A DNA stretch of 64,000 nt from Bacteroidales bacterium (lineage in GTDB: Bacteria > Bacteroidota > Bacteroidia > Bacteroidales > F082). Position numbers and translations under genes: made by a program. The DNA lies in assembly GCA_017531225.1 (NCBI GenBank), contig JAFXLL010000010.1, forward strand, positions 496,001 to 560,000, given 5' to 3'. This document shows positions 1 through 48,343 of this stretch, in pieces (position 1 is the stretch's first letter; every line of letters starts with the position of its first letter). A model generated the notes under the pieces. It saw only the letters and a program-made list of their open reading frames with translations. It searched no databases and was not told the DNA's origin.

Positions 1-3000
1 CTGCATTGACGGTGACATGTGACTCGCCAACATAGGATAGATAGGAGAGCTGTGTTCCGGGAGGAACCGCCGAACCTAAACCACCGCCATACACATCGCC
101 GTTGTTGTTGCCGTCCGTACCAATCTGGCCACCATTGATGACAACCTCGGACTTACCAGTACCTGCAACATAACCAATGATAGTGTCATTATGTGAGGGT
201 AAGGATACAGTGTTGAAAGTACCCACCGAAGCGATGGTGCCACCGCCTAACACATGGTTGTAAATCTTACCTCCGTTGACGGTTACCAAAGTGTTGCCAA
301 ACACACGGCCGCCAATAGGATTGTACAATGCGACAGGGGCAGGAGGATTGGAATAAACGTCGGTACCACGACCGCCGCCGTACACTTGGCCACGCACAAC
401 ACGACGGCCAACACCCATTTCGTCTTCCGCAATCTCGCTGTCAGCCTCCGATAGGTGGAGGACGCGGCTTGCATCATAGTACTCGCATGTTGTTTGTTCT
501 TGTGAAAGGGCGTATTCTGTACCATGTAAAGGTATACCACCTATGACAAAGTTGTTGGGTCCTTCGGAAGTGCCGATGGCGACATCCGTATTCTCATACA
601 CACGACCGTTCTCGCCACCACCGAACACACAGCTAACTACCTGGGCGCTGCCCTCGACGCTCACCGAAGTCTCTTTGACATAGGCCATCTTGTTGTATTG
701 TGGATGTGCCTCACCACGGCTGGCGCCGTAGATGCTACCCTCGTTACCGCCGAGGTACTTGAAAGCCTGACTGATATACGCTGAATCCGTCAACGATGAC
801 ACTCCTAAAACATCAGCTGCATCAGCCAATTCTTCAGCAGTGATGTCTTCGGTAAGGTCGGCTTTCTTAGGACCGATAAGCGCATTGCCGCCTACTGTAA
901 CCGAAGCAGTACCTCCTCCGAGCCATTCATTAATGGTGCCGTCGGATTTGAAGGTGAAGTTACCCACCGAAGCCATACGACCGCCGCCGTACACATTGTG
1001 ACGCACCACGGCATTGCCATTCACGGTCACATTGGTGTTGCCATATACGCGACCCAACAATTCATGGTCACCTGCAGTGGTAGCAGTACCTTCGCCGCCG
1101 CCATACACGTCACCGGTGTTGACTTCATCGTGAAGACTGCGGTCTGTCACATAACGTTCCCTGAAGTTCAGCCTTCTACCAACGGTACCACCGCTAACAA
1201 CAACGAATGTATTGCCATCAACAGCTGCCTTATTTCCACCACCGAAGATATTGCCTTTTGCCCAACCGGTAACCATGTTCACTCTGGTATTGCCGGTCAC
1301 TTTGGCGGTATCAACATCCTTTTCGATACCCAAGCCGGCGCCGAAGATGTCGCCTGCAACCACGGCCTCGTCATGCAACATATTCACTTCAGTGTTGCCG
1401 TTCACAATAGCCAGTGAACCACCGCCATACACATTGCCGCTTACATAGGCGTGTGGGTGTTCAGGTACGGTATAAAGCGGATCATTGTTTCCATCTTTAG
1501 GAATGAATGCTGCCATGGTAGCGGATTCGTATCCGATGTTGACCCGTGGGTTGGAAACAACGGTTGCTGTGTCACCCAAGGAGCCACCGAACACATTACC
1601 CCTGATACCTGGTTCTTGTGCGATGTGAATCACGTTGACTACGGGGCTAACAGTGTCAACGGTTGTGGAAGTAATGGCCGTTTGTTTGCTGCCACCATAA
1701 AGGTTGGTAATGTCCAACTCACAATTTGTAGTCTCTTTATCTATCACGTTCACCGTGATCACACCTTCGATGTTACCATTGACATCGCTACCACCAAACA
1801 CATTGGTATGCTTACCACCATAAAGGTTAAGAGTGACATTACCGCCGTAACCTACTGGGAAAACAGGATATTGGTCATGGAGCGCTTGTGTCACTTTGCT
1901 AATGTTAGCCGGATTGGTAATGGTACCGCATGATCCGCCAAACAGGTTTTCTACTTCACCACCTTCCACGTTAAGGGTGACATTACCATAGATATTTGCA
2001 TTATGGGCTCCACCATAGAATTCATGGTAGTAGCCTTCACCGCAAGCGAGGGTGGTGATCACATCGCCGATGATAGGTGCCTCGTTACTGCCGCCGAAGA
2101 TGTCAAGAATGAATTCTTCGCAATTCGATGGACTGTTGTGCGTGAACTGAAGATTGGTTTTAAGGATACTACCGTCTTGGTTACCGCCACCGAACACAGT
2201 GTCGATAAGACCGGCATTGATGGTAGTATTAGCCGCTCCCCAAATATTAGCAACATGGACTTGACCGTTACCGCCACCGAACACCCTGTGGATACGACCG
2301 CCGTCGACGATCAAATTGGCGTCAGCGTTGACATTGACAGTACCGATATCAGCTGCGTTGGCACCACCATAAAGATCCTTGATGGTGTTGTCGCAGGTAT
2401 AAACATGAACCGTGGTGCTATTGGCAGCTCTCAGATGAGCACCTGGCGTGAAACTTGACTCGTTGCCACCGCCGAACACGGCATTAATGGCATACTGTTG
2501 GGTTTGAGCATTTTCTTGAAGTGCTTCCGCCGTCCATCCTCCTAATGGAGCCGTAGGAACAGTGTTGGCTGGGGTATGTGCGGTCTTATACACATTCACG
2601 AAGACATCACCCAACGGCGTGCCGTTGTGGTCGTTGGCACCATACACATTGCCAGTGATAGTAACACCCGTGTTGGAGAGGTCGGATTTACCGACATTCA
2701 CTATAGCACGGCCTAAGTTAATAGAGTTACGACCACCACCAAACACGTTGTTGACTGTGCCGGCCAGCAGGTTGACCTCACTCTTACCCATGATGAGACC
2801 TGCGATGGTATCATTAGTGTAACCAGTCTCGCCAAACACACCTTCGCCAGCGCCATATACAGAGTGTCGAACCGTACCACCGTTGATGTTGACTTGAGTG
2901 TTGTGGATCAACTCCACATCATCGCTGTCGAGACCGATCTGTCCATTCTTGCCGCCGCCATACACAGCGTTGGCAATGTCAGCACCATCGTTGATATTGA

Positions 3001-6000
3001 CGGTGGTATAAGAGACAAGTGCAAAGTTCTTGAACTGTTGAACAGGATTAGTATCGGGGTTCGGCATACCTTTTGAGCCGCCATACACGCTACCTCCATA
3101 GGTTGAACCTGTTGTTCCGATAGACGTATTAACGTTGACCGTGGCACCAGTGAGGTCGCTTTGGCAGTCATGATCGCCAAAGCGAGGAGGACCCACCGTG
3201 GCCAGATTACCACCACCATACACGTTGTTGTAAATCGTACCACCGTTGATGGTGACGTTGGTCTTCTGGGTTACTGAGCCAGAAAGAGCGCTATAGGATG
3301 TAGGATCGTCTTCGTCAACCAAGCCTACGCCGGATCCTGCACCGTACACATTACCACGCTCAGTCCAGTTCGCGTTGTTAGGATCGTTGTTGATAGTAGC
3401 GTTGTTGGAAACCACGTCGGTTCCAAACTGCACACCGATGGTACCGCTGTTGACAACGGTGTTGGTATTCCAACGCACGTGACCGTCTTGGGCACCACCG
3501 TACACGGAGCCGTAGAGACGAGGACCGACGGAAGAACCTGGAGTACCGATTTGCACATGGGTGTGATTGGTGAAACCAAGGAACACGTCAGGACGTTTGC
3601 CAAAGAGGTCATCGACTTGTTCCGGACGCACATCGGGAACTGCCATACCACGGCAACCACCGAACACTGAGCCGTATGGAATAGTATCTTTGAAAACGCT
3701 CTGAGGTTTCTCTGGGTTAAGCATACCGAGGGTACCTCCAGTGATGGTGATATAGGTGTGACCTGAGTTGGTGGTATCGGCCCATTGATCCATAGCAGTG
3801 ACCAGCTCGCCGTAACCTACTGTATTGTAGTCGCCCACGCCAGCAGCATAGTTACCCACGCCAACAGAAGCGAGGTTACCACCACCGAACACGCTGCGCA
3901 CCACGTATGCATCGGTGTTGTTGGCAGCGTTGATGTTGACGTTGGTATTGCCATAGACCTTACCAGCAGTGATGTCGTACTTGTCGTTGTCGGAAGCGTC
4001 CTTATAAGTGTCCTTACCTTTACCGCCGCCGTAAATTGCATGGCCAACGAGACCCTTGGTAAGGGTGACGTAAGTGTTGTGGTTGACGTGGCCGTTTTCA
4101 CCACCGCCATACACAGCACCGGTGATGCAGCCTTTTCGGTTGGCAGCCAAAGTATCTTTATAGTTTACAGGGGTGACGCTGTTCAGGTCCGCATAGTTGA
4201 TGTTGATCACTGCGGTGTCAACATTGGACAGCAGGGCCATCGCGTAACGGTCGCCCACAGTACCCTTACTACCACCATAGATGTCACCATTGTCCACTTT
4301 CTCATCCTTGCCGGTGATACCGATACGACCGCCTGTTACGTTGACGGTAGCCTTACCGGTCTGAGGAGCGTAGGTGAATTTGTAAGGCCAGCTGTAGAGG
4401 AAGGGGTGTGGGGAGACGTGCTCTTCGGAACTGGCAATAGTACCTACCGAAGCGATCTCACCGCCGCCATACACGCTACGCATCACCCAGCCGCCTTCAA
4501 TATTGACGGTGGTGTTACCTTTGACAACACCTGCCAATGGGTTATAGGCATCTGGAGTGTCATCGTCATCGCTGTCATACATATCGGTACCGCTACCGGC
4601 GCCATAAACGTTACCACAATAGGAGTTCTTCACGGCGTTGACGCTTGAAGCGTCACCGATGCGGCCGCTATAGATGTTGACCGTTGCGTTAGTGTTGACG
4701 TGGCCGTTCTCGCCAGAGCCATACACGGAAGCGTTCACCAAGGCGTCGCCCGACAAAGTAGAGCCTTCTTTCCTACCGATGTTTACAGTGGCGACCTGTA
4801 CGGTAGCCATAGCGTCAAACTCATGACCAGGAGCGGCGATCTCACCACGTGAGGAGCCATACACGTTACCGCCGTACATGTTGGCGATACCTGAAGCGTC
4901 GCCGATGGTGCCGCCGAGGATGTCAACCGTAGTATTGGTTGGGTCTTGTGTCGGATAGTATGAAACTTGCGGTGGACCGACGATAGCCAATGAACCGCCA
5001 CCATATACGTCACGGTGGATCAAACCGCCGTTGATAATAACGTGAGATTCACGTGTGACGGAACCTGCAGAGTTGCAATAGTTGTCGGTACCTGCGATCT
5101 TTTCAATGCCTCGACCTGCACCATAAACATTGCCTCTGAGTTTCCATTTGTTGGCAGTGATGTCGGTGCCGTCGCCTGAATAGGCTTTACCAATCTCAGC
5201 CTTCGGGTTGACGACAACCTCGGTATTCATACGGACGTGTCCGTCCTCACCACCGCCAAACACTGAACCGTAAACCACAGGCTCATGGGTGCCGTCGCCG
5301 ATGGTGACTTCGGAGTAGTTGATGTAACCCAAGAAGAAGTCGCGGCTGTAGTTGTAGCGTGGTGACTTGTTGTTGCTCGGGAAGGTAATACCCTTGGATG
5401 AACCGAACACATGACCGTTATCGTCGCTATCACCCCAGACCTCGGTGCCGATGGTACCGCCATTGATCTTGACGTATGTAATACCGTCTTGATTTGAGGG
5501 AGTACATGCGCTGCCTTCGACATTGCCTTCGCCATAACCCCAATAGTTACCCTTACCCACGGAAGCCATGTTACCTCCGCCGTAGACGTTCTTCAGGATG
5601 TGGCCGCCATTGACGACAACGTAGGTGTTACCATAGACCTTACCAGCAGTGACGCTGTGTACCATAGTGTCGTTATCGGTGACGTGTCCGCTCGGAACAC
5701 TTGTATTGACAATCCAAAGTGAGTCGCTGTACAGGTCGGTACCCTTACCGGCGCCGAACACAGAGCCGCCGATGAGGCCGCTGTTGATAGTGTCGTAAGC
5801 GTTCTCATACACGTGGCCGTTTTCGCCTGATCCATACACGGAACCGACGATGCATGCGGCATCGTTGGTAATGCTGGTTCCAGGATTGGTGTAATCCACC
5901 TTAACCGTTGATCTACGCGTGTTGGCGAAATAGCTGAACTTGTAACGGTTGCCAGCCTTGCCTCGTGCAGCGCCATAAACGTCGCCGCTGTTGTTGGCTG

Positions 6001-9000
6001 CCACGGTGCCGATATGACCTCCCGTGACGGTGACCGTAGTCTCGCCACCCATGGCGAAGGCCAGTGTAGCAGGCCAACTGATGGTGTCACCCGTGTGATT
6101 CTCAGTGACGGTATGGAGACCCACCGAAGCCATAGCACCAGCGCCATATACGTTACGGCTGATGTAACCGCCGGAGATATTGACCTCGGCATCGCCCCAA
6201 ACGATACCCGACTGTGGATTATAGGAATCCTCCTTCCCGTCGTTGTCGGAGTCGAACATGTCGGTACCGCAACCACCGCCGTACACGTTGCCACGGAAGC
6301 CGAAATACTTCAACTGCTTAGCATAAGTCTCAGGAGCCGCAGCATATTTGTCATACTCGGCAGACAGGCAACCGATGGTGCCGCCCTTCACGTTGACAAC
6401 GGATTTCAGATAAACATGACCGTTCTCACCAGAGCCATACACCGAACCTTTAATCATAGGGCCAGAGCCATCATCGTTACCGATGGTTACGTTGGTGCGG
6501 ATGGCAAACGACAAGCTGTCGGAATAGGCGCCGATGGAGTCGATTTCACCGCGTCCCGAACCGAACACCAAACCGTTTTCGTGGCCGTCAAAGCCAAATT
6601 TGTTTTGTTCGTATGAGTCGAGGCCGATGGTACCGCCTTCGATGGTCACAGTAGCCGTGCCCGTGCCTGACACTTCAGGATTTTTACCCGAGCGCAGGTC
6701 GTAGGTACCCACCGAAGCGATGGGACCGCCGCCATACACGTTGTGGTACACATGGCCGCCCGTGATAGTGACGTTGGTGTTGCCAAAAACACGACCCGAA
6801 GTGATGCTCAAATGATCGGGCATACCTGCCACCTTGTAATGGCTCGTACCACCGCCGCCACCATACACATTGCTGTGCCATGCACCATGCACCTTGAGGG
6901 TATCTTCATCCATGTAGGCATAGCCGACCGTGCCGCCGTCTATATTGACATGGGTATCGCTATACACGTGGCCGTTGACGGAGCCGCCATACACGTTGCT
7001 CTTCACATTGGCATTGTTTTCAATAGTGACGTTGGTGCTGTTCACGTATGCCAAACGCACCACTTGGTCGGCGCCGTCGGTACCATTCTTGATGGTATCA
7101 TAGCCGTGGGGGTTGCCCGCCAAGCCACGACCGCCACCTACCACGTCACCGTTGTTCTTTCCGTCGGTACCGATTTGGCCGCCGTTGATGGTGACATGGG
7201 TGACACCCGTGTTGGCAACGTATGAAATTCTCTGAATCTGCTCACCGAGTGGTATATCTGAAGGAATGTCGTCCTTATGATAAGTGAATGTACCAACCGA
7301 AGCTAATGAACCGCCGCCATACACCTTGTTGTAAATGGTGCCATTGCTAATCGTCACGTTAGTGTTGCCGTACACACGACCTGTGGTATAACTGTATTCC
7401 CCGTTGGCAAGTTTATCGGTACCCTTACCGCCGCCATACACTTCGCCACGGATCACATGGCGACCAAAACCAAACTTGTCTTCGGCGATTTCACTGTCAG
7501 CCGGTTTAAGATTCACCGTGAGGCTGGCATCGTGGTAGGGATTTGTGGAAGGCAAATCGCTAAGAGCGAACGAAGTGCCATGCAACGGTAAAGCACCGAC
7601 AGTGCCACCATTGACATCGACTTTGGTGTGGCGTGCCACGTGGCCGTTGTCGCCGCCACCAAACACTGAGCCTATCACCTGGGCATTTTCGGTAATGCTG
7701 ACAAAGGTGCTGTCGTTGAAGGTCAAGTCGACCATGCCTGAAAGACCACAGCCTGCACCGAACACCATGCCGGAATTGCCGCCGAGATACTTGAAGACCG
7801 TGTCGATATACTGCTGTGTGTTAATATCATCAGCATAACCTGTCCTAGCCGGTTTCAAATCGTCTGCAGAAGGTTGTGTGAGGTCTTCCTTCGTGGGACC
7901 GATGTGAGCATCGCCCTTGACGATGACCTTGGTGATACCGGTTCCTGAAGCGAAGACAGGAAGTCCATTAGCGTCTTTTCCAGTGATGGTGCCCACATGC
8001 GACAAGCCGCCGCCACCATACACGCCGTGGCGCACCGTACCACCCTCGATGGTGATGTTGGTGTTGCCGAACACGATGCCCGTGGTGTCGTTATACACGC
8101 CAGGATAAACTGCTGCGATGCCTTTACCGCCACCCAACACGTTACCCGTGTAAATAAAGCTGTTGTATTGTTCGTAATTGTCAGTAAGGTATTCCTTAAG
8201 GGTGATTTTCTGGCCCACGGTGCCGCCGGTCATCGTGACGACGGTGCTCTTCAGGACGTGGCCGTTGTCGCCGCCGCCAAACACCGAGTTATAAATCATA
8301 GCGTCGCCGCTGATGTTAACGTAAGTGCTGTCCACATTGGCAAATTCATGGGCGTTGCCGTCGTTTTTACCGCCAGCAAATCCCAAGCCACCGCCATACA
8401 CGCTACCGTTAAAGATGGTTGCCTGATCGACTCCGATTTGCTCGGTACCGACTTTACCGCCGCTGATGTTGACATGCGCACTCTTCAATACGGAGCCTGA
8501 CCTACCACCGCCATAGACGTTGCCCATGGCCAAGCCATTGCTCATATTGATTGTGGTATGGCCATTTACCAGACCTGCTTCCTTGTTTTCACCAAAGTAG
8601 TTACGTCCTCCACCAAAGATGTTGCCATCGTAGCCAGATTTACCCGAACTACCGATAACAGTGGTTTTGCCTGCATCTTGGCCAACGGCCACATTGGCAT
8701 TGCCCAAGATATGGCCGTCCTCGGCACCACCTATCACTGAACCGTAGATGATACCGCCCGTGATTTGCACATCAGTGCTTCCCACATTGGTAAGACCATC
8801 GAAAACGTCTCTCGGGTCACCAGCACCGCCACCAAAGACATAGCCGGAGAGCGGACGCGCTGCGATGTCCGAATCGGTGCGTGGCACACCAACGGTACCG
8901 CCGCTTATCCTGACGGTGGCTTTACCGTCCACATTGGTGGACTCGTTGGCACCATACACATTGTTGAGGATGTGGCCTCCGGTGATATTCACCTCAGTGT

Positions 9001-10981: not shown

Positions 10982-11026
10982 ATGTCTGGGTTCCATATTA
11001 AACCTGCAAAATTACAACTATTTTCT

Positions 11027-19084: not shown

Positions 19085-19100
19085 ATCGTTATGATTCGGG

Positions 19101-25100: not shown

Positions 25101-28100
25101 AGTAGGCGATCCTGAAGCAGTGGTGTTGGTCACCGTATACTCCTTGCGCAGATGCACACAGCCACTCATGTGTTCGTATGAAACGCCGTTAACCGTCAAG
25201 GTGGAGTCGCCCACCAAAGCGCCCTTGTTGCAGCCACCGTACACCGTATGGACATTTCCATGGAGCAAAATGATGTCGGGGATCAAATCCATGTCACCAA
25301 TATTGTTGCCACCAAATATGGTTCCCACATGGTCACGCGTGTCGCCAGTACAATTCTGAACATTGAGGAACACCTTCATAAAGCCATTGGCATAAACGCC
25401 ATTACCTCCGCCGTACACATTCTCAATATATCCACCATTGTCGCCACCATCAATGGCGATGTCAACAAAGATGTTGGATTGGATGGGCAGGTTTCCGGGA
25501 TCGCAATAGGCGCCATGTTCATAGTCATAAGCGCCGTTACCACCGCCGTAAACAGTGTGGATATAAGGTGTGCCTGTGATTTCGATGTAAGTATTGACTT
25601 TCTGACTTGGTTCTGCCGATATCAACGGAGTGTTATTGTCGGAAGCCGTGTTGTAGGTATCAGGCAATACACGGTTGGAGATGCCGCCAGCCTTGCCCAA
25701 ACGGTCATTGCCTCCATAGAGTGCGCCGCCATTGGGGCCAGTGCCGATGCTGCCACCAGCCACCCTCACCTCGTTGCTGCCGTTAATGGAGGCCATATTG
25801 CCGCCGCCATACACATCGCCTTTCACTTCGCCGCCAATCATACGAACTGAAGCCAACCCAACGTCTGAAGGATAGGGTTTGCCACCGGCTAACGTGTGTG
25901 TGAAGCCAACGGGAGCCATGTTGCCTCCCGCATAAACGTTTCTATTGACGATGACAGTTCCATTGAGAACCACATGAGTCTCATTGTGTGTGGGGACAGT
26001 CATACCCACATAAGAGTGACCTGGATCATAATTGATTCCGTCGATATACACGCCCGATCCGTCCACACAATGATAGTAGCCGTTGCCGCCTGCAAAGATA
26101 TCAGTATGGATTGTGCCACCCAAAGCCTCAACATACGTGGCTCCATGAACATCTTGGTAATGAGGGTCGGTGATGCCGAGTGACATGTTCCAACGGGTGC
26201 TGCCCACATCGCCACTGATGTTGCAGCCACCATAAACGGTACCTACGTGTCCGTTCAGTATTCGTACCCAGGTGCTATAACCCACATTGCTCATCTGGCA
26301 TCCACCATAGAGGTAGTCTATCAGTATCGTGGGGCTGTTTACAACCACTTTGGTGCCATATTCAAAGTTGAAGTTCTCAAGATGATGGCTGGCATCGAAA
26401 GAGATTTCAGGACCGACAAGACTATCGTGTGCCATCATATCACCTGCGTTGCCGCCACCGTACACAGTGCCGAGACTGCCTGAAGTCAGGTTGATGACGG
26501 GCAAACCGCTCATCGTAGCCTTGTTGTTGCCGCCAAAAAGGGTTCGTACATTATAAACACCATAACCGTTCCAAGGATAGGCGGCATTGATATCAATGGT
26601 GCTTCCCGAATGACTATTGATGGCAGTGGAATAGGTATTTGCAAGATTGCAGTTGACGTTCAATGTGTCCGAACGCACATCGGCCGAGTTGCCACCTCCG
26701 AAGATGGTATCCATCTGGCCGCCGTGGATGTTGATTAGAACATGTTGGCCCTGCACTTTGTTGCCGCCACCGTAAAGGTAACCAATGCCGAAGTCACGGC
26801 CCAATTGACCGTTATAATAGCCGCTTTCATCTGTTCTAAGTGTGGTGTTGTTTACTGTAATGATTTCTTTGGATTTATAGCCCAGCGATCCGCCGTAGTT
26901 GTTGCCGCCAAAGACGGTGTAGATGGTGCCGCCATTGATGGTGATGTTCACGTCGTTCACCGTGTTGTTCAAAATGGCGTTCTTGGCGCCGCCAAACAGG
27001 GTGTCGATCTTAACGCTATCGTTGGTTATGATGATGTTGGCCGTAGAAATGGTGGGACACACAAGGTTTTGTGTAGAACCAGTGTTGTTGGTCCAAACAA
27101 TCTCACCTTCAGGATGTGAGGGTGTTATCGCCATAATGCTGGATCCATCGTCCACATCGTATTCAGTATCATAGGAAGCCTGAACAATCGAAGTGCCGTT
27201 GTAGGCATAGTAGCCGTTGCCTCCGCCATACACATCGAAAACTCTGACTTTGGAGGAAGCTTTGCCCCCATTGTAAGCCGTAGCATTAGCATCGTCCTCA
27301 TTGACGCCCATGGTAATGGTAGATCCGCCGCTGACGGTACCGGCAATATCATTACCGCCAAAGACACCGTTAACACTGTCACAGTTGATCATTAATACTT
27401 CGGTATTGCCCGTCACGTCGGCCATACGACCACCGCCATAGACGGCACCGAGAATGATGACATCGGGTTCGGCATGCGTGGTAAAATGGTAAATGAACTC
27501 GTCATCATCGACAGGAAGGTAAGCTCCATTGCAGTAGGCAGCCACCCGGTAATCATAGTTTTGTTTGTATTCCAAGTCGTTGATACCTATGGTATAGGTA
27601 GTAGCGGTGATGTCGGAAATCGAGACAGCCTGACTCCAATTCTCAGTGGTTTTTTTGTATTCCATCTTGTATTTGTCGGCGGTGGGGAGCCACGACAGGG
27701 TGACATCCTCGTAGGAAACCACCGGTGCCGCATCTTGATGTGGATTCTGACAGGTGGTTTTCACCGTGACGGTAGCCGTGCGCACTTCAGTACCACCATG
27801 TTCATAGGTGACAGTCAGCTTCAATGTGGCCATCTTGTGACTTGATGTGGTGTTTTGAGTATGATAGGTTACTGAAGTAGTTGCACCTGTAGTATTAGAG
27901 AGAGAGAGGTAATCAACACCAGGTCCGGTAAGTTCCCAAGCATATCCCGTAGCATGGTCGTTGGTTATTGTGGTTGCGGTGGGTGCGCTTGCAAGAGTAT
28001 TGCCATTGGCATCAAAATAGTAGGTATTCCCGTCGAACGTGTATGAGGTATAGGCGGGGGTGTAGGTATAAGAGAAGTCGCTTGCCGTGCCGTTCACTTG

Positions 28101-28763: not shown

Positions 28764-28770
28764 TATTCTC

Positions 28771-31700
28771 TTATTCTAATTTGCCATTGATGATCACTTT
28801 CGGGTCGCCGATTACTTCACCCATGTTACCGCCGCCATAGACGTTGCCACTGATCTTGGATCCTTTCTTGATCAGGATCTGTGGATTGCCTGTGACTTTA
28901 GCTTCCAGACCGCCGCCGAACACGTTCTTGACGGTGGCGTTCTTAATGTTCACCTGCGGATAGTTATACGGTGGGGTATGGGTATTGGATCCTGTAATAG
29001 GACTGTCTGAGGCAGGCACCCCAGGATAGTCCGCTTGATTGCCTCCGCCATACACATCGGCCAGCGACACATCCAGCGGACAGTAGTCGGCACCGGATTT
29101 TTGTTCCACGTTCACCGTGATACTGCCACCGATGGCGCCTTTCACGTTGCTGCCGCCGAAGATGGCGTTGGTGACGGTGCCGCCGAAGATCTCGAGAAGG
29201 ACGTTACCTTGGATATCGGCTCCTTTGGTTGTAGTTCCTTTAGAACCGCCGTACACGTTTTCGAAAGTACCACCTTTTACAATAAGGTGAATATTGCCGC
29301 TACCTCCATTGCCCGCCTTCACATGAGCCTCTTTGCAGCCGCCGTAGAGATTGGTGACATGCATTCCCTCGCTACAGGTGATGGTGGCCTCAATATTGCC
29401 CTCGAAGTCGGCGTACTTGCCGCCGCAGTAAAACTCGGTGATGGACACTTCCTCGCAGCCTGAAGTCTGGTCGACCGTGACGTTGGAGGTACCAGAAATG
29501 GTACCGTTTTGGTTGCTGCCAACAAAGAACTCTCCGACGATGCCGCCATGGATTTCGAGGTTGACGTTGCCAGTAATATTAGCGGCTTGGACTTCTCCGT
29601 TACCGCCGCCGAACACCTCAGCAAAACGGCCGCCTTGGATCTTGGTAGAGACATGGGGAGCCTTTGCCGCGTTGCTACCGCCGAACACACGGCGAATGGT
29701 GTTGTAACAGCTTGCAATATTCACCATAGCCGTTTTATCTGTTGCTGTAAAGTCGGCCTTGTTGCCGCCGCCAAACACATTGGCAATGGCGTAGGTGGCA
29801 TCTTCATCGGTATAAGTGACTTGGTCTTTTGCCTCGCGATAAGTTCTATAGATATTAACTTCTACATCATCTTGAGGTGAACCGCTGGTGTTGTTGCAGC
29901 CATAGACGTTACCTCCAATGGTGGCATTGCCCACACAGGTGTCGTTCACAGGATCAAGGCCTCTAGTGTTGTTGGGAGCACCGATGTTGACCTCGATCTT
30001 ACCGTAAACTAGTCCTTTGGTGCTGACACCTTCTTCGCCGAGTCCACCGCCAAACACATTGCCACCGGTATATAAGACATATTTTCTTCCAGTAGGCATA
30101 TGATTGACCAAAATATCCAATGTATCCGTCTTGGAGAAGAGTGTGCCATCCAAAACATTGACAACCGTAGTATTCACGCTGCCGAGGGCCGAGCCACCAT
30201 AAATGTCGCCATAGAGTTTCAGGTTGGCATTAGGAGCACCAGGGGTAGTAGGTTTGTTGCCAAAGTTGACGGTGACGTTACCTGCCACCTTGGTATTTGC
30301 ACCCAGACCGCCGCCGAAGACGTTAGCGACAGTGTCGTGTGAGAGTTGTGTTTGTGAGCCGATTGTGCCGCTTTGGATGGTCACCAAAGCGTCGGTGGCC
30401 ACTGAGCCTTTTTCGTTGCAGCCGCCATAGATGCCACCGAGGACAGTACCACCCGTCATGACGACATTGCTTCCATTGACGCCTCTTGGGGTGTTGACGA
30501 GAGTGTCGGCAGTGATGTCATTACCGCCGCCATAGACGTTACGGTAGATGGTGCCTGCAATGATATTCACTGCTGGGGTACCTCCATAAGGAGCGTGGTT
30601 ACCGCCGCCATAGACTTCGCCGACGTACCAGTCACAAGAGCCAGTCTTTTCAATATTCACCGTGATGGTGCCCTGGATGGTATCTTTATCGTTGTTGCCG
30701 CCAAACACCTTGTTAATAATGCCGTCGTTGATATTGAGTAAAACACTGTTCGACACATTAGCTGCATTGGAGCCGCCATACACGGTGCCGATGCCTTCGA
30801 GGGTGGTGCCGATTCTTTCGGGATGAGCATAATGATCAGCGGTTAGGCTGCCAGTGCATCCAATATTGATGGTGCCCGCCTTTCCAGTAGCACGGTTGCC
30901 ACCGCCATAAACCTCTTGGACTTTCATGTCGCAAGCACCTGCAGCGGTGCTCTTGTCGACATTCACTGTGATGTTGCCGGTGATCAGTCCGCTGGTGTTG
31001 TTGCCGGCGAACACATGATCGATGGTGCCACCATATATATTGGTAACAGCGTTGCCTGACACCATTTCAAAGTTGGCTGCCACGCCCTCGCCGTTACCAC
31101 CGCCGAAGACGTAGCCGATTTTGTTGCCACCGTAGATTTTCACGTCGGTAGAGGCCACTTTTGCTGCGTTGCCGCCGCCATAAACGTATTCGATGCTATT
31201 ATTGCAATTATGTACGGTAACTTTAGGATAGCCATTGCCGTAAGTATAGGCCGCTCGGTTGCCTCCGCCGAACACATTACCAAGGGCGAATGACGAGCCT
31301 GAGGCTGGATCCGTGCCGTAGATATCCACATTGACGGAACTTTGTGGGGCACCGTTGACGTTGTTACAGCCATAGACGGAGCCTGTGACCGTACCGCCAT
31401 TAACGGTGACTTGGACAGCACCGTTCACAGCTGCCGCATGATTGTTATCGCCCAAGCCGCCGCCGTAGAGATCGCCGTGGATGGTGCCGCTGGTCAAGGT
31501 GACGTTCGTCTGATCAGTACTGGCATTGTTCACGTTGCCCAACGCCGAGCCACCATACACATCGCCCCAGATAACTGCCGTAGCTCCATTGATGGTGACG
31601 GTGACGTTGCCTTCGGTCTCGGTTTGGTGACCATAGCCACCACCGTGGACGTTGGCTCTGCTGCCGTCAGCGCCTATTGTACCGCCTGTGATGCCGACCA

Positions 31701-34700
31701 CGATGTTGCCAGTGACGGTGCCGCTGGTGTTGCAGCCGCCGTAAACACCGTTGTTAACGGAACCATTGTTCATGGTCACTGTAGCAGTACCAGTAACGCC
31801 TGCCTGATTGCCGCCGCCAAAGAGCTTGATTGCCGATGAACCAGCCTTTTGGAGTGTCACCGAGGTCGATCCATTCACCGATGCCGCATCACCACCGCCA
31901 TAAACTTCACCCATAATGATAGCAACAGTGTCGGGGATAGAGAAGCCTGTGGCGACGATGCTTCCCGTAGCACCTGGTGTCAAGAGCGTTGCCATGGTGG
32001 CAGCATCATAGCCTACATTCACCACTGGGTTGGATGTAACGACTGCCGAGGAACCCAAGCCACCACCATAAACAAATTTGTTCACGGTACCGTTGATGAT
32101 ATTGACCAAAGGTGAAGAGAGGTTAGAGTTGTCAGGAGTATAAGGTGCCAAGTTACCACCGCCATAAACGGTGTCGAGCACCAAATTACATGGAGCGGAA
32201 ACCGTGTCCAACACATTGACGGTGATCTGGCGTTTGACATTACCCAAGAGGTTTGATCCGCCAAAGGCGTGATGGACGGTGCCGCCATAAAGGTTCAATT
32301 GGACATTTCCATCAATCCAAGCGTCTGTGCTATTGGTATTATCACCTTTCGAACCGCCATAAGCATAGTTGATGGTTCCGCCGTTGATGTTGAGTTCCAC
32401 GTTACCAGTGATGGTAGCTTTGTTGGAACCGCCGTAAATCTCGCCAATGGCACCCACGCCGCAATTAATAGTAGTGTTAAGGTTACTTGAGATGGGAGCC
32501 AAGTTGGCACCGCCATAGATAACACGGAACACTTCGTCTCCGCAGTCGCCAGCCTTGTCAAGATTAAGGCTGGTAGCCATAATGGAGCCCAACATATTGC
32601 TGCCGCCGAAGATCGTGTCAATCAAGCCAGCGTTGATGGTAGTGGTAGCAGTGCCGTAGATATTGGCTGCTACAGGGCTACCGTTACCGCCGCCGAACAC
32701 TCGGTTGATACGGCCACCGTCGATGAGGATGAAGGTGTTGGCACTGACAGCGCCTTCGCCTGTGGTACCTACATTAGCCGCATTACCACCACCGAAGACA
32801 TCCTTAATAGTGTTTTCGCAGCCGTAGACATATACTTGAGTGCTCCTGTTGGCCACAGGAGTATATGAAGCCTGGTTGCCGCCGCCGAAGACCGACTGGA
32901 TGGCGTAGGTTTGGGTTGCAGCATTTGTTGCTAAAAGTTCAGGTGTCCATGTTCCAGAGGTCAAGGTAGGATATAGATTGTGTGCAATATCATCGCCATG
33001 TGCAGTTTGATAGATGTTCACAAAAACGCTGTCCTGAGGCGAACCGTTCAGGTTGTTGCAGCCGAAGACCGCACTGGTATCGGAGAAGACAACGTTACCC
33101 ACGGGGGAGTTATTATCTATCGTCCCGATATTGACGAATACCTTTCCGTTCACTCCGGCTTTGATGTCTCCTTGTTTCTTTCCAAGGCCACCGCCATAGA
33201 CGTTGCCGTAGACGTTGCCGTTGAGTATGTTAACTGTGGTGGTATCAATACCACCATCTGTGGCATCGTTGACCCAACCCAGTGCAGAGCCGCCATAGAT
33301 GTCTCCATATACTTTCGGATACTCACTGAAGGTAGCGGGGGTGTCTCCGTAATTGACGGTGACATGGCCCTTCGTTTGGGTGTCTTGTCCATAGCCGCCG
33401 CCATGGAGGTTGGCATGAGCATCGTTAGCACCGATGGTAGTATGGTTGTCGGAGCTACCTGTGACGTTCACTGTGATGTCACCATCAACAGTACCGCTCT
33501 TGTTGCTTCCGCCGTAGATGCCGCCTCTGACCGTGCCGTTGGTGACAGTCACCAAGGCCGAACCGGTAAGACCGGCCAGGTTGCCGCCACCGAAGATGGT
33601 GTCGACCGTGGTAACCACGTTCATGATGACCACTGCGGAGTCAGCCTCAGCTGCGTTGCCGCCGCCAAACAAATTGCCGACACGGCTATTACCTTTCAGC
33701 ATCAGCACCGAGTCGATGCCGTCGACTTGCGCTGCGTTGCCGCCGCCGAAGATGTTGCCATAATGGCTGTCGTTATAATAGATTGTGATTCGGTTGTTTT
33801 CGTGTTCTAGTCCTGAGAGGGTGTCGCCGATCATGACTTTCGGATGGGCTGTGACCACAGCTCCCGATCCCTTGCCGCCGCCGAAGACGCAGCCGTTGAC
33901 GCTACCATGTCCCACCGTGCCGTTCCAGAGGTTAACTATTGGAGAGACTATCTTCTCGCCATTTACGAGACTAGGTGTATAAGCTGCGTCACGACCACCG
34001 CCGTAGACGGTATCCACTTGAAGTTGACAGTAGGCCACAGTATCCCAAACGTTTACGTTGATCGCACCCAAAATGCTTCCAAAGACATCGCTGCCGCCGA
34101 AAGCGTTTTCCATGGTGCCTCCGTGAAGGTTGAGGGTGACCGCACCTGAGATGTCAGCCGAAGCCGCAGCAATTTGTTCCTGGGTTGCACCTGGAGCGGG
34201 GAGGGTACCTTTTGAACCGCCGAATATATTGTGATATTGGCCGCCAAGGATGTTAAGGGTGACACTGCCGTCGATATCGGCCAGGTTGGAGCCGCCGTAG
34301 AAATTGCCAATCTCGTAGTCCTTATTATTACAATAAAGAGTAGTGTTTATGTTTCCAGAGATATTGGCTTCGTTGGCGCCGCCAAAGGACTCATAGATCA
34401 GCAGGACGTCGCATTGGTTATCAATACCGAGCGACACAGTCGCGATATTGCCGTATTGGTTGCTGCCACCAAAGACTTGGCGATACAAGCCGCCTTGGAC
34501 ATCGGTGAGGGCAGTGCCGAAAATATTGGCGCCAGGGTTGTAGTTGGGTTGATCGGAGTGGTCATGGTTATGGGTGGCGCTATAGCCGTTACCGCCGCCA
34601 AACACTTGGTCGTAGCGTCCACCTTCAATAATAAGCCTTGTATTGGCGGCAATTGTGTCGCCTGTTGCGGTGGTGTCGCCCACATTGGCAGCGTTACCGC

Positions 34701-35457
34701 CGCCGTAGATGGTTTGAATGGTGTTTTCATCACATTCAAACACATGCACAGTAGTGCACTTAGGATCACCATTTCCATTAAGGTTTGGCTTATAGGAAGC
34801 CTTGTTGCCACCACCATAAACGGCTTTGATAGCGAACTCCTTGGCATAATTCGGATCGTTAAGGTCGGCTGGGAAGGAGCTTTCCAACTCATCATAAGTG
34901 TCAATTCCAGCAGGATATTGGTTGTTGTGTTCACCCTCGGTATGCGCTGTTTTGTAAATATTGACGAACACGCTGTCGAGGGGGGTACCGTTGATATTGT
35001 TACAACCGAACACGCTGCTTTTAAGGGTGGGACCGCCAGAATTGTTACCGATATTGACAAACACTTTGCCATACACCAGAGCGGCGATATCAGCTAATCC
35101 GCCATAGCTTATTGAGTCACCGAGACCTCCACCATACACGTTGCCATTGATGACACCTTGCAGGATGGTGACATGCGTGGCCGTGCCTTCATTGTAGGTG
35201 TAGGTAGTATCGCTCCCACTCACGGTCATGGTAGCATTCACGTGAGCCAGGGCACCACCGCCGTACACGTCACCGAGAATGGTATCGCTGTTTGACTTGT
35301 TCATCAACACGGAGCTGCTCCCCATGACGACGGCCTTGTTGCCACCGCCGTACACGTTGCCGTGTACTTTAACATGAGCTGGTGGGTCTTGTGCCAGCGC
35401 CATTCCATTGATCATCAACAGAGCCAAGGTTATTATGCAGGTAAGTTTTTTGTTCAT
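28771..35457 (-). CDS. Giant exported YGGG-repeat protein, 2228 aa
   Basis: The signal peptide (MNKKLTCIITLALLMINGMALAQ) leads straight into HVKVHGNVYGGGNKAVV. I counted about 64 glycine motifs. They are arranged in cassettes with up to 18 motifs in fixed order: GGGLG, GCNN-GSPQDSV, GGGNxAxYTP, GGGNAANVG, GGGNG, GGSNxxG, and later HGGGYG and GGSALG. Cysteines recur at the same cassette positions. The protein ends two motifs after the last cassette (VFGGGLEAKVTG, VYGGGNMGEVIG), with no sorting domain or membrane anchor. The start lies 16 bp after the upstream GLUG gene and the next start is 7 bp after its stop, which argues for one transcript. No characterised family is known to me. A secreted beta-solenoid is likely from the strand-turn periodicity and Gly/Asn turns. 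Confidence 0.93.
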   Translation of the reverse strand: MNKKLTCIITLALLMINGMALAQDPPAHVKVHGNVYGGGNKAVVMGSSSVLMNKSNSDTILGDVYGGGALAHVNATMTVSGSDTTYTYNEGTATHVTILQGVINGNVYGGGLGDSISYGGLADIAALVYGKVFVNIGNNSGGPTLKSSVFGCNNINGTPLDSVFVNIYKTAHTEGEHNNQYPAGIDTYDELESSFPADLNDPNYAKEFAIKAVYGGGNKASYKPNLNGNGDPKCTTVHVFECDENTIQTIYGGGNAANVGDTTATGDTIAANTRLIIEGGRYDQVFGGGNGYSATHNHDHSDQPNYNPGANIFGTALTDVQGGLYRQVFGGSNQYGNIATVSLGIDNQCDVLLIYESFGGANEANISGNINTTLYCNNKDYEIGNFYGGSNLADIDGSVTLNILGGQYHNIFGGSKGTLPAPGATQEQIAAASADISGAVTLNLHGGTMENAFGGSDVFGSILGAINVNVWDTVAYCQLQVDTVYGGGRDAAYTPSLVNGEKIVSPIVNLWNGTVGHGSVNGCVFGGGKGSGAVVTAHPKVMIGDTLSGLEHENNRITIYYNDSHYGNIFGGGNAAQVDGIDSVLMLKGNSRVGNLFGGGNAAEADSAVVIMNVVTTVDTIFGGGNLAGLTGSALVTVTNGTVRGGIYGGSNKSGTVDGDITVNVTGSSDNHTTIGANDAHANLHGGGYGQDTQTKGHVTVNYGDTPATFSEYPKVYGDIYGGSALGWVNDATDGGIDTTTVNILNGNVYGNVYGGGLGKKQGDIKAGVNGKVFVNIGTIDNNSPVGNVVFSDTSAVFGCNNLNGSPQDSVFVNIYQTAHGDDIAHNLYPTLTSGTWTPELLATNAATQTYAIQSVFGGGNQASYTPVANRSTQVYVYGCENTIKDVFGGGNAANVGTTGEGAVSANTFILIDGGRINRVFGGGNGSPVAANIYGTATTTINAGLIDTIFGGSNMLGSIMATSLNLDKAGDCGDEVFRVIYGGANLAPISSNLNTTINCGVGAIGEIYGGSNKATITGNVELNINGGTINYAYGGSKGDNTNSTDAWIDGNVQLNLYGGTVHHAFGGSNLLGNVKRQITVNVLDTVSAPCNLVLDTVYGGGNLAPYTPDNSNLSSPLVNIINGTVNKFVYGGGLGSSAVVTSNPVVNVGYDAATMATLLTPGATGSIVATGFSIPDTVAIIMGEVYGGGDAASVNGSTSVTLQKAGSSAIKLFGGGNQAGVTGTATVTMNNGSVNNGVYGGCNTSGTVTGNIVVGITGGTIGADGSRANVHGGGYGHQTETEGNVTVTINGATAVIWGDVYGGSALGNVNNASTDQTNVTLTSGTIHGDLYGGGLGDNNHAAAVNGAVQVTVNGGTVTGSVYGCNNVNGAPQSSVNVDIYGTDPASGSSFALGNVFGGGNRAAYTYGNGYPKVTVHNCNNSIEYVYGGGNAAKVASTDVKIYGGNKIGYVFGGGNGEGVAANFEMVSGNAVTNIYGGTIDHVFAGNNTSGLITGNITVNVDKSTAAGACDMKVQEVYGGGNRATGKAGTINIGCTGSLTADHYAHPERIGTTLEGIGTVYGGSNAANVSNSVLLNINDGIINKVFGGNNDKDTIQGTITVNIEKTGSCDWYVGEVYGGGNHAPYGGTPAVNIIAGTIYRNVYGGGNDITADTLVNTPRGVNGSNVVMTGGTVLGGIYGGCNEKGSVATDALVTIQSGTIGSQTQLSHDTVANVFGGGLGANTKVAGNVTVNFGNKPTTPGAPNANLKLYGDIYGGSALGSVNTTVVNVLDGTLFSKTDTLDILVNHMPTGRKYVLYTGGNVFGGGLGEEGVSTKGLVYGKIEVNIGAPNNTRGLDPVNDTCVGNATIGGNVYGCNNTSGSPQDDVEVNIYRTYREAKDQVTYTDEDATYAIANVFGGGNKADFTATDKTAMVNIASCYNTIRRVFGGSNAAKAPHVSTKIQGGRFAEVFGGGNGEVQAANITGNVNLEIHGGIVGEFFVGSNQNGTISGTSNVTVDQTSGCEEVSITEFYCGGKYADFEGNIEATITCSEGMHVTNLYGGCKEAHVKAGNGGSGNIHLIVKGGTFENVYGGSKGTTTKGADIQGNVLLEIFGGTVTNAIFGGSNVKGAIGGSITVNVEQKSGADYCPLDVSLADVYGGGNQADYPGVPASDSPITGSNTHTPPYNYPQVNIKNATVKNVFGGGLEAKVTGNPQILIKKGSKISGNVYGGGNMGEVIGDPKVIINGKLE
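29890..35004 (-). repeat. B-type super-repeat, 18 motifs per full unit, four copies
   Basis: The GCNN motif codons lie at 34996, 33052, 31360 and 29890, so the unit length shrinks along the gene: 1944, 1692 and 1470 nt. Counting motifs between GGGLG landmarks gives 18, 17 and 14, so later units appear to have lost motifs rather than diverged in spacing. Confidence 0.75.
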
Positions 35458-35473
35458 ATATCGTAACTTTTTT

Positions 35474-38400
35474 TTATTTCGATTGAGTTTGGATTATCAC
35501 TTCGGAGTTACCACTTACGGGGCCTTCGTTACCGCCGCCATAAACATTACCAAGCACGTGGGTGCCATCTTCGAGGATGACTTTGGTGTTGCCGCTAACG
35601 GCGCTTTCGTCGCCACCGCCATAGACATTACCTGTGTCGTCATCTCCTTGAGTGCCCACCGTGGTGTTGCCCTTGAGTGTAATGGTGGCTGTATTAACTG
35701 AGCCGAGATTGGTCTTGTCCAGGTTCTCTGTGGTATAGAGGATGTGGTCGGTCTTGTCAATACTGATGGCATCGTCGTGTTCCCATGTATAGGTCGTGGG
35801 CGCAAAGTCAGGGTTGGTTTTATATTTCACACCTGTACGATAGGTGCCCAATTGGTCATAATAGTAAGGCTCGGTTTCAAAGCCGATGGCATCGACTTGG
35901 ACCGTAGGCAGCGAAGCCGAGAAGCCTGCGCCGTAGACGTTGCCGTAAACAGTACAACTGTCGAGCGTGGACGTCACATTGCCTGATACCTTGCCAAGGC
36001 TGCCACCGCCGTAGAAGTTATTCAGGATAGTGCATTCTGTCAATGTTGATGTTACGCTGTGTGTGGTTGCCAACGAGAATTTTACAAAGTCTACAAAAAT
36101 ACGGGCACAGTTGTTGGCGTTGTTCGACATGGGCAGGAACTGGTAGCTGAACCTGGTGGATACGCCACCGTAGGTACTATTGTATTCTTGCTTGTAGAAT
36201 CTCGCCAACCACGCGTTCCAAGAGGCGTCGTTGCCAGCCTCACCATCGTTATGGGGGAAGTTTGTAATGCTGTTATGGTTTCTTGGTGCTTGGCGACCGT
36301 AGGAGTTGCCGCCGTAGCCAGCACCGAAAAAGGTGCCGAAGGTGCAACTGGTGGCGTTGGTGACCACGGTTTTGTTATTGCTCATATCGCCGAACTTGGG
36401 TCCGCCGCAGTACAATTCAATATAGCCGCCCGTAATTGTGGTGCTGAGGTTGCCTGTTACCGGCTTGGCTGCATTGATGCCACCAGCAAAAAACTCACGG
36501 ATGTCGGCATTCTGTACTTGCCAGGTGATATTACCGGTGTTGTCGGCACCATTGGCTTTTCCGATGCCCTCCATGGCGGCACCGGCTACGGTGCCGAAGC
36601 GGCCACCGTTGATATAGCACTCAGCATTGTCGGCATAACTGGTGACATTTGCAGTATATAGGCCAGTAAGGTAGAATTCGTCGTAGTCGCCGCCGGTAAC
36701 CGACACGGGCGGGTGTTTGGACTGCAAGGTCTTGTCTTGGTGAGTGCCGCGATGGAATTCCTTGAACCACACGTTGCCGCCCACGAGGAAGTAAGTTGTT
36801 TTGTTAGCAGCTCCGTTGTTCTGACCGCTCACCCATTGTTCCATTACGCCGCCCTGCACAATATAGGGAGCTGCAACACGATCGCTACGGTCGTACTCAA
36901 ACTGTGTGACGCGGAAGAGCGAGGTGTTGGTAGACTCAAACCAGCCTTTGGGCTGCATAATACCGAAGTTGTACGAGCCTGTTCCGCCAGTAGACTTCTG
37001 TGCCATACCGAGACCGGGAACATTGATAAAGTCGACTTTTACAGGGTGGGCAGCGGTACGACCGTCGAAACGCAGCATATACGAGTAGTCGGGCTCGTTG
37101 TCGCCATCAAGGTCGATAGAGGTAACCGTATAGGGCTTGCTGTTACTTGCTTCCAAGGCACCATAATGATGATAATTGCCCACAAGTACCACGGCATAAT
37201 CATTAACGGATTGATTATTTGGATCCCCTACAATGCCAACAAAAAGTCCTGTACTATTCGAACTTGATATAGCATTGCCCATCGTGGTGAGAACCACTTG
37301 GTTTTCTCCGGCAATGGAATAGCTGTTACCATTGGTGAATATCTTTCCGCCGCCTACATTGGATACGTCGTATCCTGTCCCCATTGCCGTATTATACACC
37401 TTGTCGGCGTTTTGGTCGGCCAAGTAGACGCATTTGGCCCAATAGGGCTCGATGGTGATGGCGGTAACGCCTTCAGGCACATCCCAATAGGCGCCCTGGT
37501 TGAAGATGCGGTTGCTGCCGCCGGTGCCATAGAGATCCTTGTTGGTGCAGTTGCGGTCGGCGAAATTGTATCCGCCCCAGGAGTCGGAGGCGGTGAAGGT
37601 GCCGGGGGTGCCGCCGGTGATATTTACAATCTTCCAGCCCGTCACCACGCGGTTGCCATTATAATTCTTTGTGCCTACATTGTTATAGTAAGGCAGCTGC
37701 ACCTTGTAGTAGTTGAAATTGAAATGGTCGGGGTCTTTGTCAGTGATGACAAGGGTAGTGTCGGAGGTGGTGATGGTAGCTCCATCCGGTGCGCCATAGA
37801 CGGCGCCTCCTGAGCCCATCTGGATGTGCACCGCAAGGGTCCCCAGCTTGCCACCTTGGTTGCGGGGCTTGCCAGTGGTGGCGTGCTCGGCGTCGATATT
37901 CACCACCGAGGGGTATTTGCCTTGCTGCATCAGCACAGGATAGGGATGATTGCTGCCAATACTGTCGGGCAACAGCACCCATTTCATCATCGCGTCGCCA
38001 CTATAGGTGCCAGTGGCCCACCAGCCTGCCAGTTTGCGTTGACCGTTGAGGAGGTGGCGGAAGAACTCGAAACGCGTAAGGAAACGGTCCTCGGCGCCAA
38101 GAGCACAGTTGTAGGTGACACCCGTCGGCTGCACATAGGGGGCTTCGAGGCGGAAATAGTTGAAGTTGCTCACGCCGTTAGCATCTCTATTCACGATGTT
38201 GGTGCCGTTGTAAATAGGTGCTATACTATTGCCACCGGTAATGTCGCCATAAAACATACATGCAAAGACCATTGAACGGCGCTTGTTGTCGGCAGAAGTG
38301 GTACCATAGTTGTTGTAGCCCACAATGCCACCCACGAAGTTACCACCAGTGATGTCGGCGTATGAATAGCAATTGACCACACGAGGCGCATTCGAGGCAT

Positions 38401-38887
38401 TGGAATTACCGTCAAGAAGACCCACGAGACCGCCGCAACAATCGGTAGCATTATTGGCTGTCGAGGTGCCAGTGCTTTCCACTGTGCCTCCAAGGATGCC
38501 TACATTGTATATGCGGGCAGAGCCTGTAGCTGTGTCAGCAATAGCACCCGTAATACCCGCTTGGCTGATATTCACGTTCTCAATCACCAAATTCTTCACT
38601 GTGCCAGTGAGCTTGGCAAAAAGAGGAGTATTGAGGTTTTTTATACGATAAGGCATTTTAGTAGCGGGATCGATGGCGGCTTCCAGTGTGCCCGAGAAAG
38701 TGGCAACACTCGGTGAGCCTCCAGTGATATCCTGCGTTATGATATAATTGCCGCTTGGGTCGACGATTGCATCCAACGAAGTGATTTCTGTTTGTGTTTG
38801 TGCTTTTGCAATCGTTGGGAACACCAGCATGAAGGCCAGCGTTATGAGGGTGAAAATATGGGAGTTGCGTTGTTTTGTTCGGCTCAT
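35474..38887 (-). CDS. Exported GLUG-type / YGGG protein, first gene of the giant operon, 1137 aa
   Basis: The ATG at 38885-38887 was chosen because it opens a proper signal peptide (IFTLITLAFMLVFPTIAKAQ) and lies downstream of a promoter-like box; the frame is open further upstream, but a start there would precede the likely transcript start. Residues about 30-200 look like GLUG-motif beta-helix (CCGGLVGLLDG, FVGGIVGYNNYG, VNCYSYADITGG). The middle has a segment with VQLPYYNNVG and RVVTGWKI. The last 110 residues switch to YGGG motifs (NNFYGGGSLGKVSG, GNVYGGGDESAVSG, GNVYGGGNEGPVSG), linking it to the giant genes. It is a full-length paralogue of the 39607-43053 protein. No T9SS sorting domain is seen. 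It is likely secreted; function unknown. Confidence 0.9.
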   Translation of the reverse strand: MSRTKQRNSHIFTLITLAFMLVFPTIAKAQTQTEITSLDAIVDPSGNYIITQDITGGSPSVATFSGTLEAAIDPATKMPYRIKNLNTPLFAKLTGTVKNLVIENVNISQAGITGAIADTATGSARIYNVGILGGTVESTGTSTANNATDCCGGLVGLLDGNSNASNAPRVVNCYSYADITGGNFVGGIVGYNNYGTTSADNKRRSMVFACMFYGDITGGNSIAPIYNGTNIVNRDANGVSNFNYFRLEAPYVQPTGVTYNCALGAEDRFLTRFEFFRHLLNGQRKLAGWWATGTYSGDAMMKWVLLPDSIGSNHPYPVLMQQGKYPSVVNIDAEHATTGKPRNQGGKLGTLAVHIQMGSGGAVYGAPDGATITTSDTTLVITDKDPDHFNFNYYKVQLPYYNNVGTKNYNGNRVVTGWKIVNITGGTPGTFTASDSWGGYNFADRNCTNKDLYGTGGSNRIFNQGAYWDVPEGVTAITIEPYWAKCVYLADQNADKVYNTAMGTGYDVSNVGGGKIFTNGNSYSIAGENQVVLTTMGNAISSSNSTGLFVGIVGDPNNQSVNDYAVVLVGNYHHYGALEASNSKPYTVTSIDLDGDNEPDYSYMLRFDGRTAAHPVKVDFINVPGLGMAQKSTGGTGSYNFGIMQPKGWFESTNTSLFRVTQFEYDRSDRVAAPYIVQGGVMEQWVSGQNNGAANKTTYFLVGGNVWFKEFHRGTHQDKTLQSKHPPVSVTGGDYDEFYLTGLYTANVTSYADNAECYINGGRFGTVAGAAMEGIGKANGADNTGNITWQVQNADIREFFAGGINAAKPVTGNLSTTITGGYIELYCGGPKFGDMSNNKTVVTNATSCTFGTFFGAGYGGNSYGRQAPRNHNSITNFPHNDGEAGNDASWNAWLARFYKQEYNSTYGGVSTRFSYQFLPMSNNANNCARIFVDFVKFSLATTHSVTSTLTECTILNNFYGGGSLGKVSGNVTSTLDSCTVYGNVYGAGFSASLPTVQVDAIGFETEPYYYDQLGTYRTGVKYKTNPDFAPTTYTWEHDDAISIDKTDHILYTTENLDKTNLGSVNTATITLKGNTTVGTQGDDDTGNVYGGGDESAVSGNTKVILEDGTHVLGNVYGGGNEGPVSGNSEVIIQTQSK

Positions 38888-38938: not shown

Positions 38939-38946
38939 CAAAGATA
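38939..38946 (-). promoter_or_regulatory. Promoter -7 box for the giant operon
   Basis: On the minus strand this reads TATCTTTG, a full match to the Bacteroidetes -7 consensus TAnnTTTG. The -33 is weak (CTTTAC, about 18 bp upstream). The leader would be about 45 nt. The same TATCTTTGC box precedes the paralogue at 43053. The surrounding 38888-39186 stretch is AT-rich and holds only this and the divergent promoter. Confidence 0.55.
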
Positions 38947-39186: not shown

Positions 39187-39594
39187 ATGGAAAAGAAAAA
39201 TCCAATCGAAGAAGCCCTGCGTTATGTGGATAACGCCAATACTCTTTTGAAAGAAAAAGGAGAGTTAGACCCCGAAACCCATTCCTACACCGACCGCAAA
39301 TACGTGAAAATGGCCGGCAACACACTGTGGAACGGGATGTTGTTCATTCTCGACACCGTATTCCAGGTGAAGAAGAATAAAAAGCACCGCCCTGACATCA
39401 GCGACTACCAACGGGTTGTCGGCGCTCGCGACAAGAAACTGTTGGCTTTGGTGAATATCGGCTATGACATCATGCACCTTTCCATGGGTTATGACGGCAT
39501 TATTGATAAAAAAACCTGCGACAGAGGATTCCAGATCGCCAACGAGATCATCGACCGCTGTGCCGTAATGCTACCTGCTACTCCAGCCGCATAA
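39187..39594 (+). CDS. DUF5618-family small protein, 135 aa
   Basis: This is a small, charged, probably all-helical cytosolic protein with no signal peptide. It shows the features I associate with DUF5618 in Bacteroidales: EALRYVDNA near the start, RKYVKMAGNTLWNG in the middle, RDKKLLAL, and HLSMGYDG before a conserved Cys and IANEIIDRC. The molecular role of DUF5618 is unknown; the fold may be HEPN-like, which is a guess from the helical pattern. The gene is divergent from the giant operon and convergent (12-bp gap) with the second GLUG gene. Two paralogues lie at 43287-44107. Confidence 0.85.
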   Translation: MEKKNPIEEALRYVDNANTLLKEKGELDPETHSYTDRKYVKMAGNTLWNGMLFILDTVFQVKKNKKHRPDISDYQRVVGARDKKLLALVNIGYDIMHLSMGYDGIIDKKTCDRGFQIANEIIDRCAVMLPATPAA

Positions 39595-48327: not shown

Positions 48328-48343
48328 ATTATTAAATTTTAAA

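Follow-up and report, generated by a model that had tools for sequence, protein, structure and literature searches.

The subject of this analysis is a 64,000-nucleotide stretch of a Bacteroidales genome (contig JAFXLL010000010.1, positions 496,001 to 560,000; G000:C7:496001-560000, hereafter the window) and, within it, a set of five giant genes on the minus strand, designated G1 to G5. On balance, these genes probably encode one very long surface fibre that is made in pieces, with the chains docking end to end and a single type IX secretion system (T9SS) signal for the whole. Both the structural class and the secretion route are already familiar; what is unusual is the proposed assembly of several chains under one sorting signal.

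All five open reading frames (ORFs) were found as the original prediction had described them, co-directional, with lengths of 1137, 2228, 3220 and 2685 aa and an open fifth frame, and the signal peptides claimed for each could be recognized by eye as N-termini with AxAQ-type sites. The set begins with G1 (35474..38887), a “head” chain whose signal peptide is followed by a GLUG/M26_N-like beta domain (aa ~28–322) and a beta-helical half (aa ~560–1137) that ends on YGGG units. G2 (28771..35457) is a YGGG beta-solenoid whose units start 9 residues past the estimated signal-peptide cut and end 3 residues short of the C-terminus. G3 (19101..28763) joins a non-repeat N-terminal region (aa 33–430, about 400 aa), conserved in the relatives G018 and G024, to a YGGG solenoid and, at the C-terminus, five InlB-type (Flg_new_2) repeats, while both ends of the G4 solenoid (11027..19084) are bare units. 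G5 occupies positions 1..10996 of the window with its first 3665 aa and stays open across the adjoining stretch of the same contig (L002) to L002:2278 (G000:C7:478278), for a full length of 9572 aa (calculated mass 1005 kDa); its solenoid reaches aa ~7510 and is followed by a 2062-aa tail with a T9SS type A sorting domain at the end. With this extension G1–G5 sum to 18,842 aa, and the earlier total of about 11,800 residues falls away.

The first three intergenic gaps measure 16, 7 and 16 bp, as claimed; the fourth, counted from the first ATG of G5, is 30 bp, and the 45 bp given before is obtained only from the second. From this spacing, co-transcription of the five genes is plausible. The Bacteroidota -7 promoter consensus is TAnnTTTG, and a candidate operon promoter that fits it, weakly indicated and read by eye, lies about 50 bp 5′ of G1 (TATCTTTG, 38939..38946, minus strand). 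A TAnnTTTG-like element (TAATTTTG) also stands immediately 5′ of G5, so that an internal promoter upstream of this gene is possible. A search with the strict Bacteroidota two-box pattern was uninformative, since its single match in the window (0.67 expected) fell inside G3, with none at TATCTTTG. Comparison of G1 with its G022 counterpart over 1090 codons gave dN 0.22 and dS 1.80, the latter close to saturation, values that indicate that G1 is evolving under purifying selection.

The repeat dominates G2 to G5. The motif [VILA][YF]G[GSAC] occurs 63, 58, 64 and 174 times in G2, G3, G4 and G5, against means of 2.4, 2.8, 3.4 and 9.6 in 100 shuffles of each, an 18- to 26-fold enrichment. The claim that all five proteins share the motif thus holds for these four. 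In G1 the motif occurs only 4 times (shuffled mean 1.1, maximum 4), three times within the last ~155 residues, and the unit profile matches this protein at 5 places, the last of which ends 5 residues short of the C-terminus. Alignment of 363 copies across G1–G5 and the G1 paralogue G0 (described below) gave a unit of about 30 residues with the consensus iyGnVyGGGnggsVtGnttVningGti and a profile of 32 positions, to which one set of shuffled proteins yielded nothing at E<0.1; the wider repeat alignment was made from 47 of the 53 locus pieces and six window pieces. Units are further arranged into super-repeats of ~620 aa in G2 and ~470 aa in G4, and long-range duplications of ~2320, ~2640 and ~5740 aa were detected in G5. 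Recent tandem DNA amplification was rejected: 19 DNA copy pairs of 53–670 bases are 71–91% identical and the protein copies 22–63%, so the duplications look old and diversified. As predicted, the repeat matched no named family, whether in Pfam (G0–G4 and G5 on both sides of aa 3666–7649, which the scan left out), in NCBIfam (run on the window proteins P0001, P0002, P0004 and P0006) or in a sequence-profile search of the PDB (0 matches at E<=1). An initial guess, DUF11 (PF01345), was discarded, with one match elsewhere in the genome.

Structure prediction, proposed originally as a check, yielded two AlphaFold models with pLDDT 88 and 91. For the repeat (AlphaFold2; pLDDT 87.9, pTM 0.90, scores only, with the coordinates not inspected), the best rows of the structural alignment were beta-solenoids, at Foldseek E values that were not significant; absence of any single family from these lists carries no evidential weight. 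On this modelling evidence the YGGG repeat is assigned to the beta-solenoid class. The alignment rows included the beta-helical adhesins Ag43, Hap and EtpA and the RTX-type ice adhesin MpAFP, with 6–19% identity in these rows; these adhesins reach the outside through type V, two-partner or type I systems and not through the T9SS. Together with the sorting signal of G5, the predicted fold agrees with a giant beta-solenoid surface fibre, which had been among the hypotheses first put forward.

The C-terminus of G5 matches TIGR04183, the T9SS type A sorting domain (hereafter the C-terminal domain, CTD), with 35.1 bits at a cut-off of 23; scores for Pfam PF18962 (22.6 and 21.2) remained under its cut-off of 27. 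None of G1–G4 appears among the 100 genome matches listed for TIGR04183, and Pfam detected no Por_Secre_tail in them at E<=1. The translocon component SprA (TIGR04189) is represented in the genome by one 2470-aa frame matched in two stretches (1923 and 572 bits). The abstract of PMC12618676 describes T9SS substrates as each bearing a signal peptide and a CTD. A close comparison, drawn by description and not by sequence, is the gliding adhesin SprB of Flavobacterium johnsoniae, according to a passage of PMC9870892 likewise a huge filamentous T9SS cargo (6497 aa). By the title of a cited paper, its operon also holds partner genes (sprC, sprD, sprF). Adhesins of the SprB type are marked by a type B CTD and a role in gliding, whereas G5 matches the type A CTD model and the window's chains are YGGG solenoids split head to tail. 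Pfam found neither the two-partner (FHA-type) TPS secretion domain in G0–G4 and aa 1–3665 of G5 nor a catalytic peptidase in these parts and aa 7650–9572 of G5 (E<=1 in both cases). The M26_N region scores 40.8 bits in G1 (cut-off 27.7) and 27.6, just under the cut-off, in G0; compared with the N-terminal region of M26 IgA1 proteases and BACOVA_03286 (3n6z), G1 differs in that the catalytic M26 domain is not matched in it and in that its other ~800 aa are arranged differently.

An indication that the five chains belong together comes from relatives of the window's genus, in which the same parts occur fused or differently split. The window protein P0001 matches 10 of 61 relatives, all 10 within the genus, and six of these loci were read as a whole (with the window, seven); G012, G022 and G036 were also positive but were not read as whole loci. 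Four relatives encode a single ORF (G034, 3319 aa; G031, 4013 aa; G029, 3788 aa; G010, 4860 aa), and BLAST with window parts placed the G1 domain in the first half, then the repeat tract, and the G5 C-terminal region at the end, matched as two pieces in G029 and G031. Two others have three ORFs (G018, 1642+2045+4691 aa; G024, 1478+2293+4770 aa), and here the order is kept: the first gene corresponds to G1, the second to the G3 N-terminal region (40% identity in G018 and 38% in G024) and the last to the G5 region. A sorting domain above the cut-off was found on the last or sole chain in 6/6 relatives' loci (7/7 with the window) and on no other chain; the second G024 chain scored 12.9 bits, under the cut-off. 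In G022, one contig carries a G2-like gene, a G3-like gene and a chain of ~7,400 aa with a CTD-like end (judged by eye), with G1 on a different contig. An unrelated 548-aa ORF, which presumably is an AAA-ATPase-like gene, sits between the G3-like gene and this giant (L163:9337-10983).

We also surveyed chain ends in 24 hand-picked proteins, comprising 14 CTD-less chains (G0–G4, two each from G018 and G024, the partner chains of Xylanibacter brevis ATCC 19188 and Prevotella sp. tc2-28, and three from G022, these three classed so without a CTD-model score), four single chains, and six chains that carry the CTD in split loci. The signal-peptide cut was judged by eye where the script gave none (tc2-28 and others). 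In 12/14 CTD-less chains the last repeat unit lies 1–18 residues from the chain end; the exceptions are G3 and the second G024 chain, with 428 and 278 residues, including InlB-type sequence, past the last unit. CTD chains open on a repeat unit directly behind the signal peptide in all five judged (window, G018, G024, X. brevis and tc2-28), that of G022 being left unjudged as its start is uncertain. Units detected in the four single chains lie only in the interior, the first at residue 884 or later and the last followed by at least 1704 residues. Since the solenoid ends of the split chains are uncapped, as docking would predict, we infer that the pieces dock.

We propose that all chains would cross into the periplasm on Sec signal peptides of their own and that the YGGG units would fold there as coils of a beta-solenoid. 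G1 would then serve as the N-terminal head, G2–G4 as solenoid segments, and G5 as the longest segment, bearing the C-terminal tail that ends in the T9SS sorting domain. The open solenoid ends would dock edge to edge and so recreate the single-chain arrangement of the relatives. Solenoids rise by ~0.48 nm per coil, and a stack of all ~325 detected units would give a fibre ~150 nm long. The lone CTD of G5 would carry the assembly through the T9SS translocon. As the binding mode described in a passage of PMC10994853 implies that substrates exit CTD-first, the G5 tail would lead and the G1 head would emerge last, i.e. be distal. Outside the cell the fibre may be displayed as an adhesin or a matrix rod, and a role in adhesion or matrix building is likely by analogy with beta-helical adhesins and in view of the InlB-type repeats that end G3. 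More tentatively, we suggest a modular T9SS cargo and secretion in trans on a shared signal, in which Sec-only chains dock by uncapped solenoid coils, one CTD on the last chain exports a whole multi-chain rod of up to ~2 MDa, and the rod has repeatedly been split and fused at coil boundaries in evolution. The ORF tables of the loci show the G1 domain either alone or fused to repeats. In a tree of this domain, the 92 rows (84 of 95 G1 references, P0001, P0006 and six relatives) comprise 54 stand-alone, 37 fused and one undecided case (L117), and require at least 19 changes, 16 of them forced by well supported branches, with a long-branch warning for G018, G024 and others.

Some of the data speak for separate proteins. 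G1–G5 might be related but independent exported proteins, of which only G5 (with the single-chain relatives) acts at the surface as a T9SS adhesin, while G1–G4 stay in the periplasm or are exported by some other route and are not joined to G5. Every chain does have its own signal peptide, and tandem copies of G1-type genes exist. Moreover, the non-repeat regions at both ends of G3 favour independence, and end-to-end docking does not fit both G3 junctions. Yet in four relatives of the genus head and tail lie on the same chain, the order is kept in the split loci, and the CTD-less chains end on uncovered units with two exceptions, so we regard independence as unlikely, if deserving of serious attention. 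That one ORF was broken into five by assembly or gene-calling errors hardly deserves belief: metagenome assembly is in general error-prone in repeat-rich regions, but every piece opens with its own signal peptide, comparable breaks occur in G018, G024 and G022, and the ORF of 50 stand-alone locus rows terminates at most 26 residues from the end of the G1 match. We consider it very improbable that the giants are beta-helical carbohydrate-active enzymes, polysaccharide lyase or tailspike-like, instead of a structural fibre.

A link with fimbriae is raised by five Prevotella-type regions (tc2-28, X. brevis, G063, G064 and G065), where giants are neighbours, two in each and three in G065, in a gene order reversed relative to the window's genus. 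Against the sorting model (cut-off 23) the C-termini of the repeat giants scored 32.1 (tc2-28), 30.9 (G065), 20.7 (X. brevis), 17.6 (G063) and 17.5 bits (G064), and the partner chains with the G1 domain gave no match; the third G065 repeat chain (1191 aa) was outside this test. In X. brevis, tc2-28 and G065 the giants are preceded by genes for a DUF3575 protein, two related lipoprotein-like proteins and a FimA/Mfa1-like protein, and in two of these three an AraC-like gene is also present. The giants could accordingly belong to a type V (FimA/Mfa) fimbria as its tip or as accessory proteins, comparable to Mfa5 of Porphyromonas gingivalis, a fimbrial protein for which a passage of PMC7835359 reports a C-terminal domain targeting it to the T9SS. 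Still, DUF3575 is matched only weakly in G064 (E 3e-8) and in G063 (E 1e-4), FimD/Mfa1 scores lie under their cut-offs, none of seven regions of the window's genus (ORFs >=350 aa) holds the gene set, and Mfa_like_1 (PF13149) has no match in the window's genome. Unlike Mfa5, the scanned parts of the giants have no von Willebrand domain among their Pfam matches. The giants are also much larger than Mfa5. A fimbrial role is quite improbable in our judgement. As a separate observation, G063 encodes an 8283-aa ORF (L151:14569-20000 and L152:1-19420, minus strand) with a G1 domain and 114 YGGG motifs but without a match to the CTD model; a repeat ORF of 4251 aa, whose CTD score is weak, lies nearby.

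The distribution of the system is patchy, as few matches were obtained in any of the samples. In profile searches of the kind suggested at the outset, the repeat profile was found in 13/61 relatives, all within the window's genus, and the G1 profile in 1/395 sampled genomes of the phylum (the window's own) and in 4/393 genomes of the order (3/206 genera). A contig scan with G0 and G1 retrieved 214 related stretches, of which the best 76 were named as loci. Titles of 58 of these 76 come from RUG, RGIG or red-deer metagenome-assembled genome (MAG) sets from the ruminant gut (RUG we take to denote a ruminant-gut set), and the window's bacterium is of ruminant-gut type. Among the same best 76 of 214, the named non-MAG records are X. 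brevis ATCC 19188 and Prevotella sp. tc2-28, both of them rumen strains with the two-chain version. A tblastn search with a G2 piece gave no match in plasmids and phages, and a mobile origin was hence rejected. Neither the YGGG repeat nor any giant protein from rumen Bacteroidales turned up in open-licence PMC full text.

Upstream of the five genes lies G0 (39607..43053, minus strand), a 1148-aa paralogue of G1 (44–48% identity) that is not a repeat protein, although its C-terminus falls on a YGGG unit; a plus-strand ORF separates it from G1. Three DUF5618-type genes on the plus strand (39187-39594, 43236-43694 and 43691-44107) stand beside G0 and G1, two assigned to PF18498 by Pfam and the third 52–58% identical to them, so that a DUF5618 gene and a head protein perhaps form a duplicated unit. 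Farther on (45466-54884, minus strand) there is a further series of exported proteins ending in T9SS tails, of BNR type, of LRR_5/BspA type and one with no other Pfam domain; interspersed among them are two TPR genes that share 52% identity. Elsewhere, L004:1775-11430 holds tandem sets of similar genes, presumably for a membrane O-acyltransferase and partners, two of whose proteins start MVFSSN(V/I)FLLYFMP.

Most chains of the operon lack a CTD and yet correspond to parts of proteins that carry one in relatives, so that export in trans becomes a testable proposition. Since a two-chain version is present in X. brevis ATCC 19188 and Prevotella sp. tc2-28, such tests would be feasible without the window's organism.
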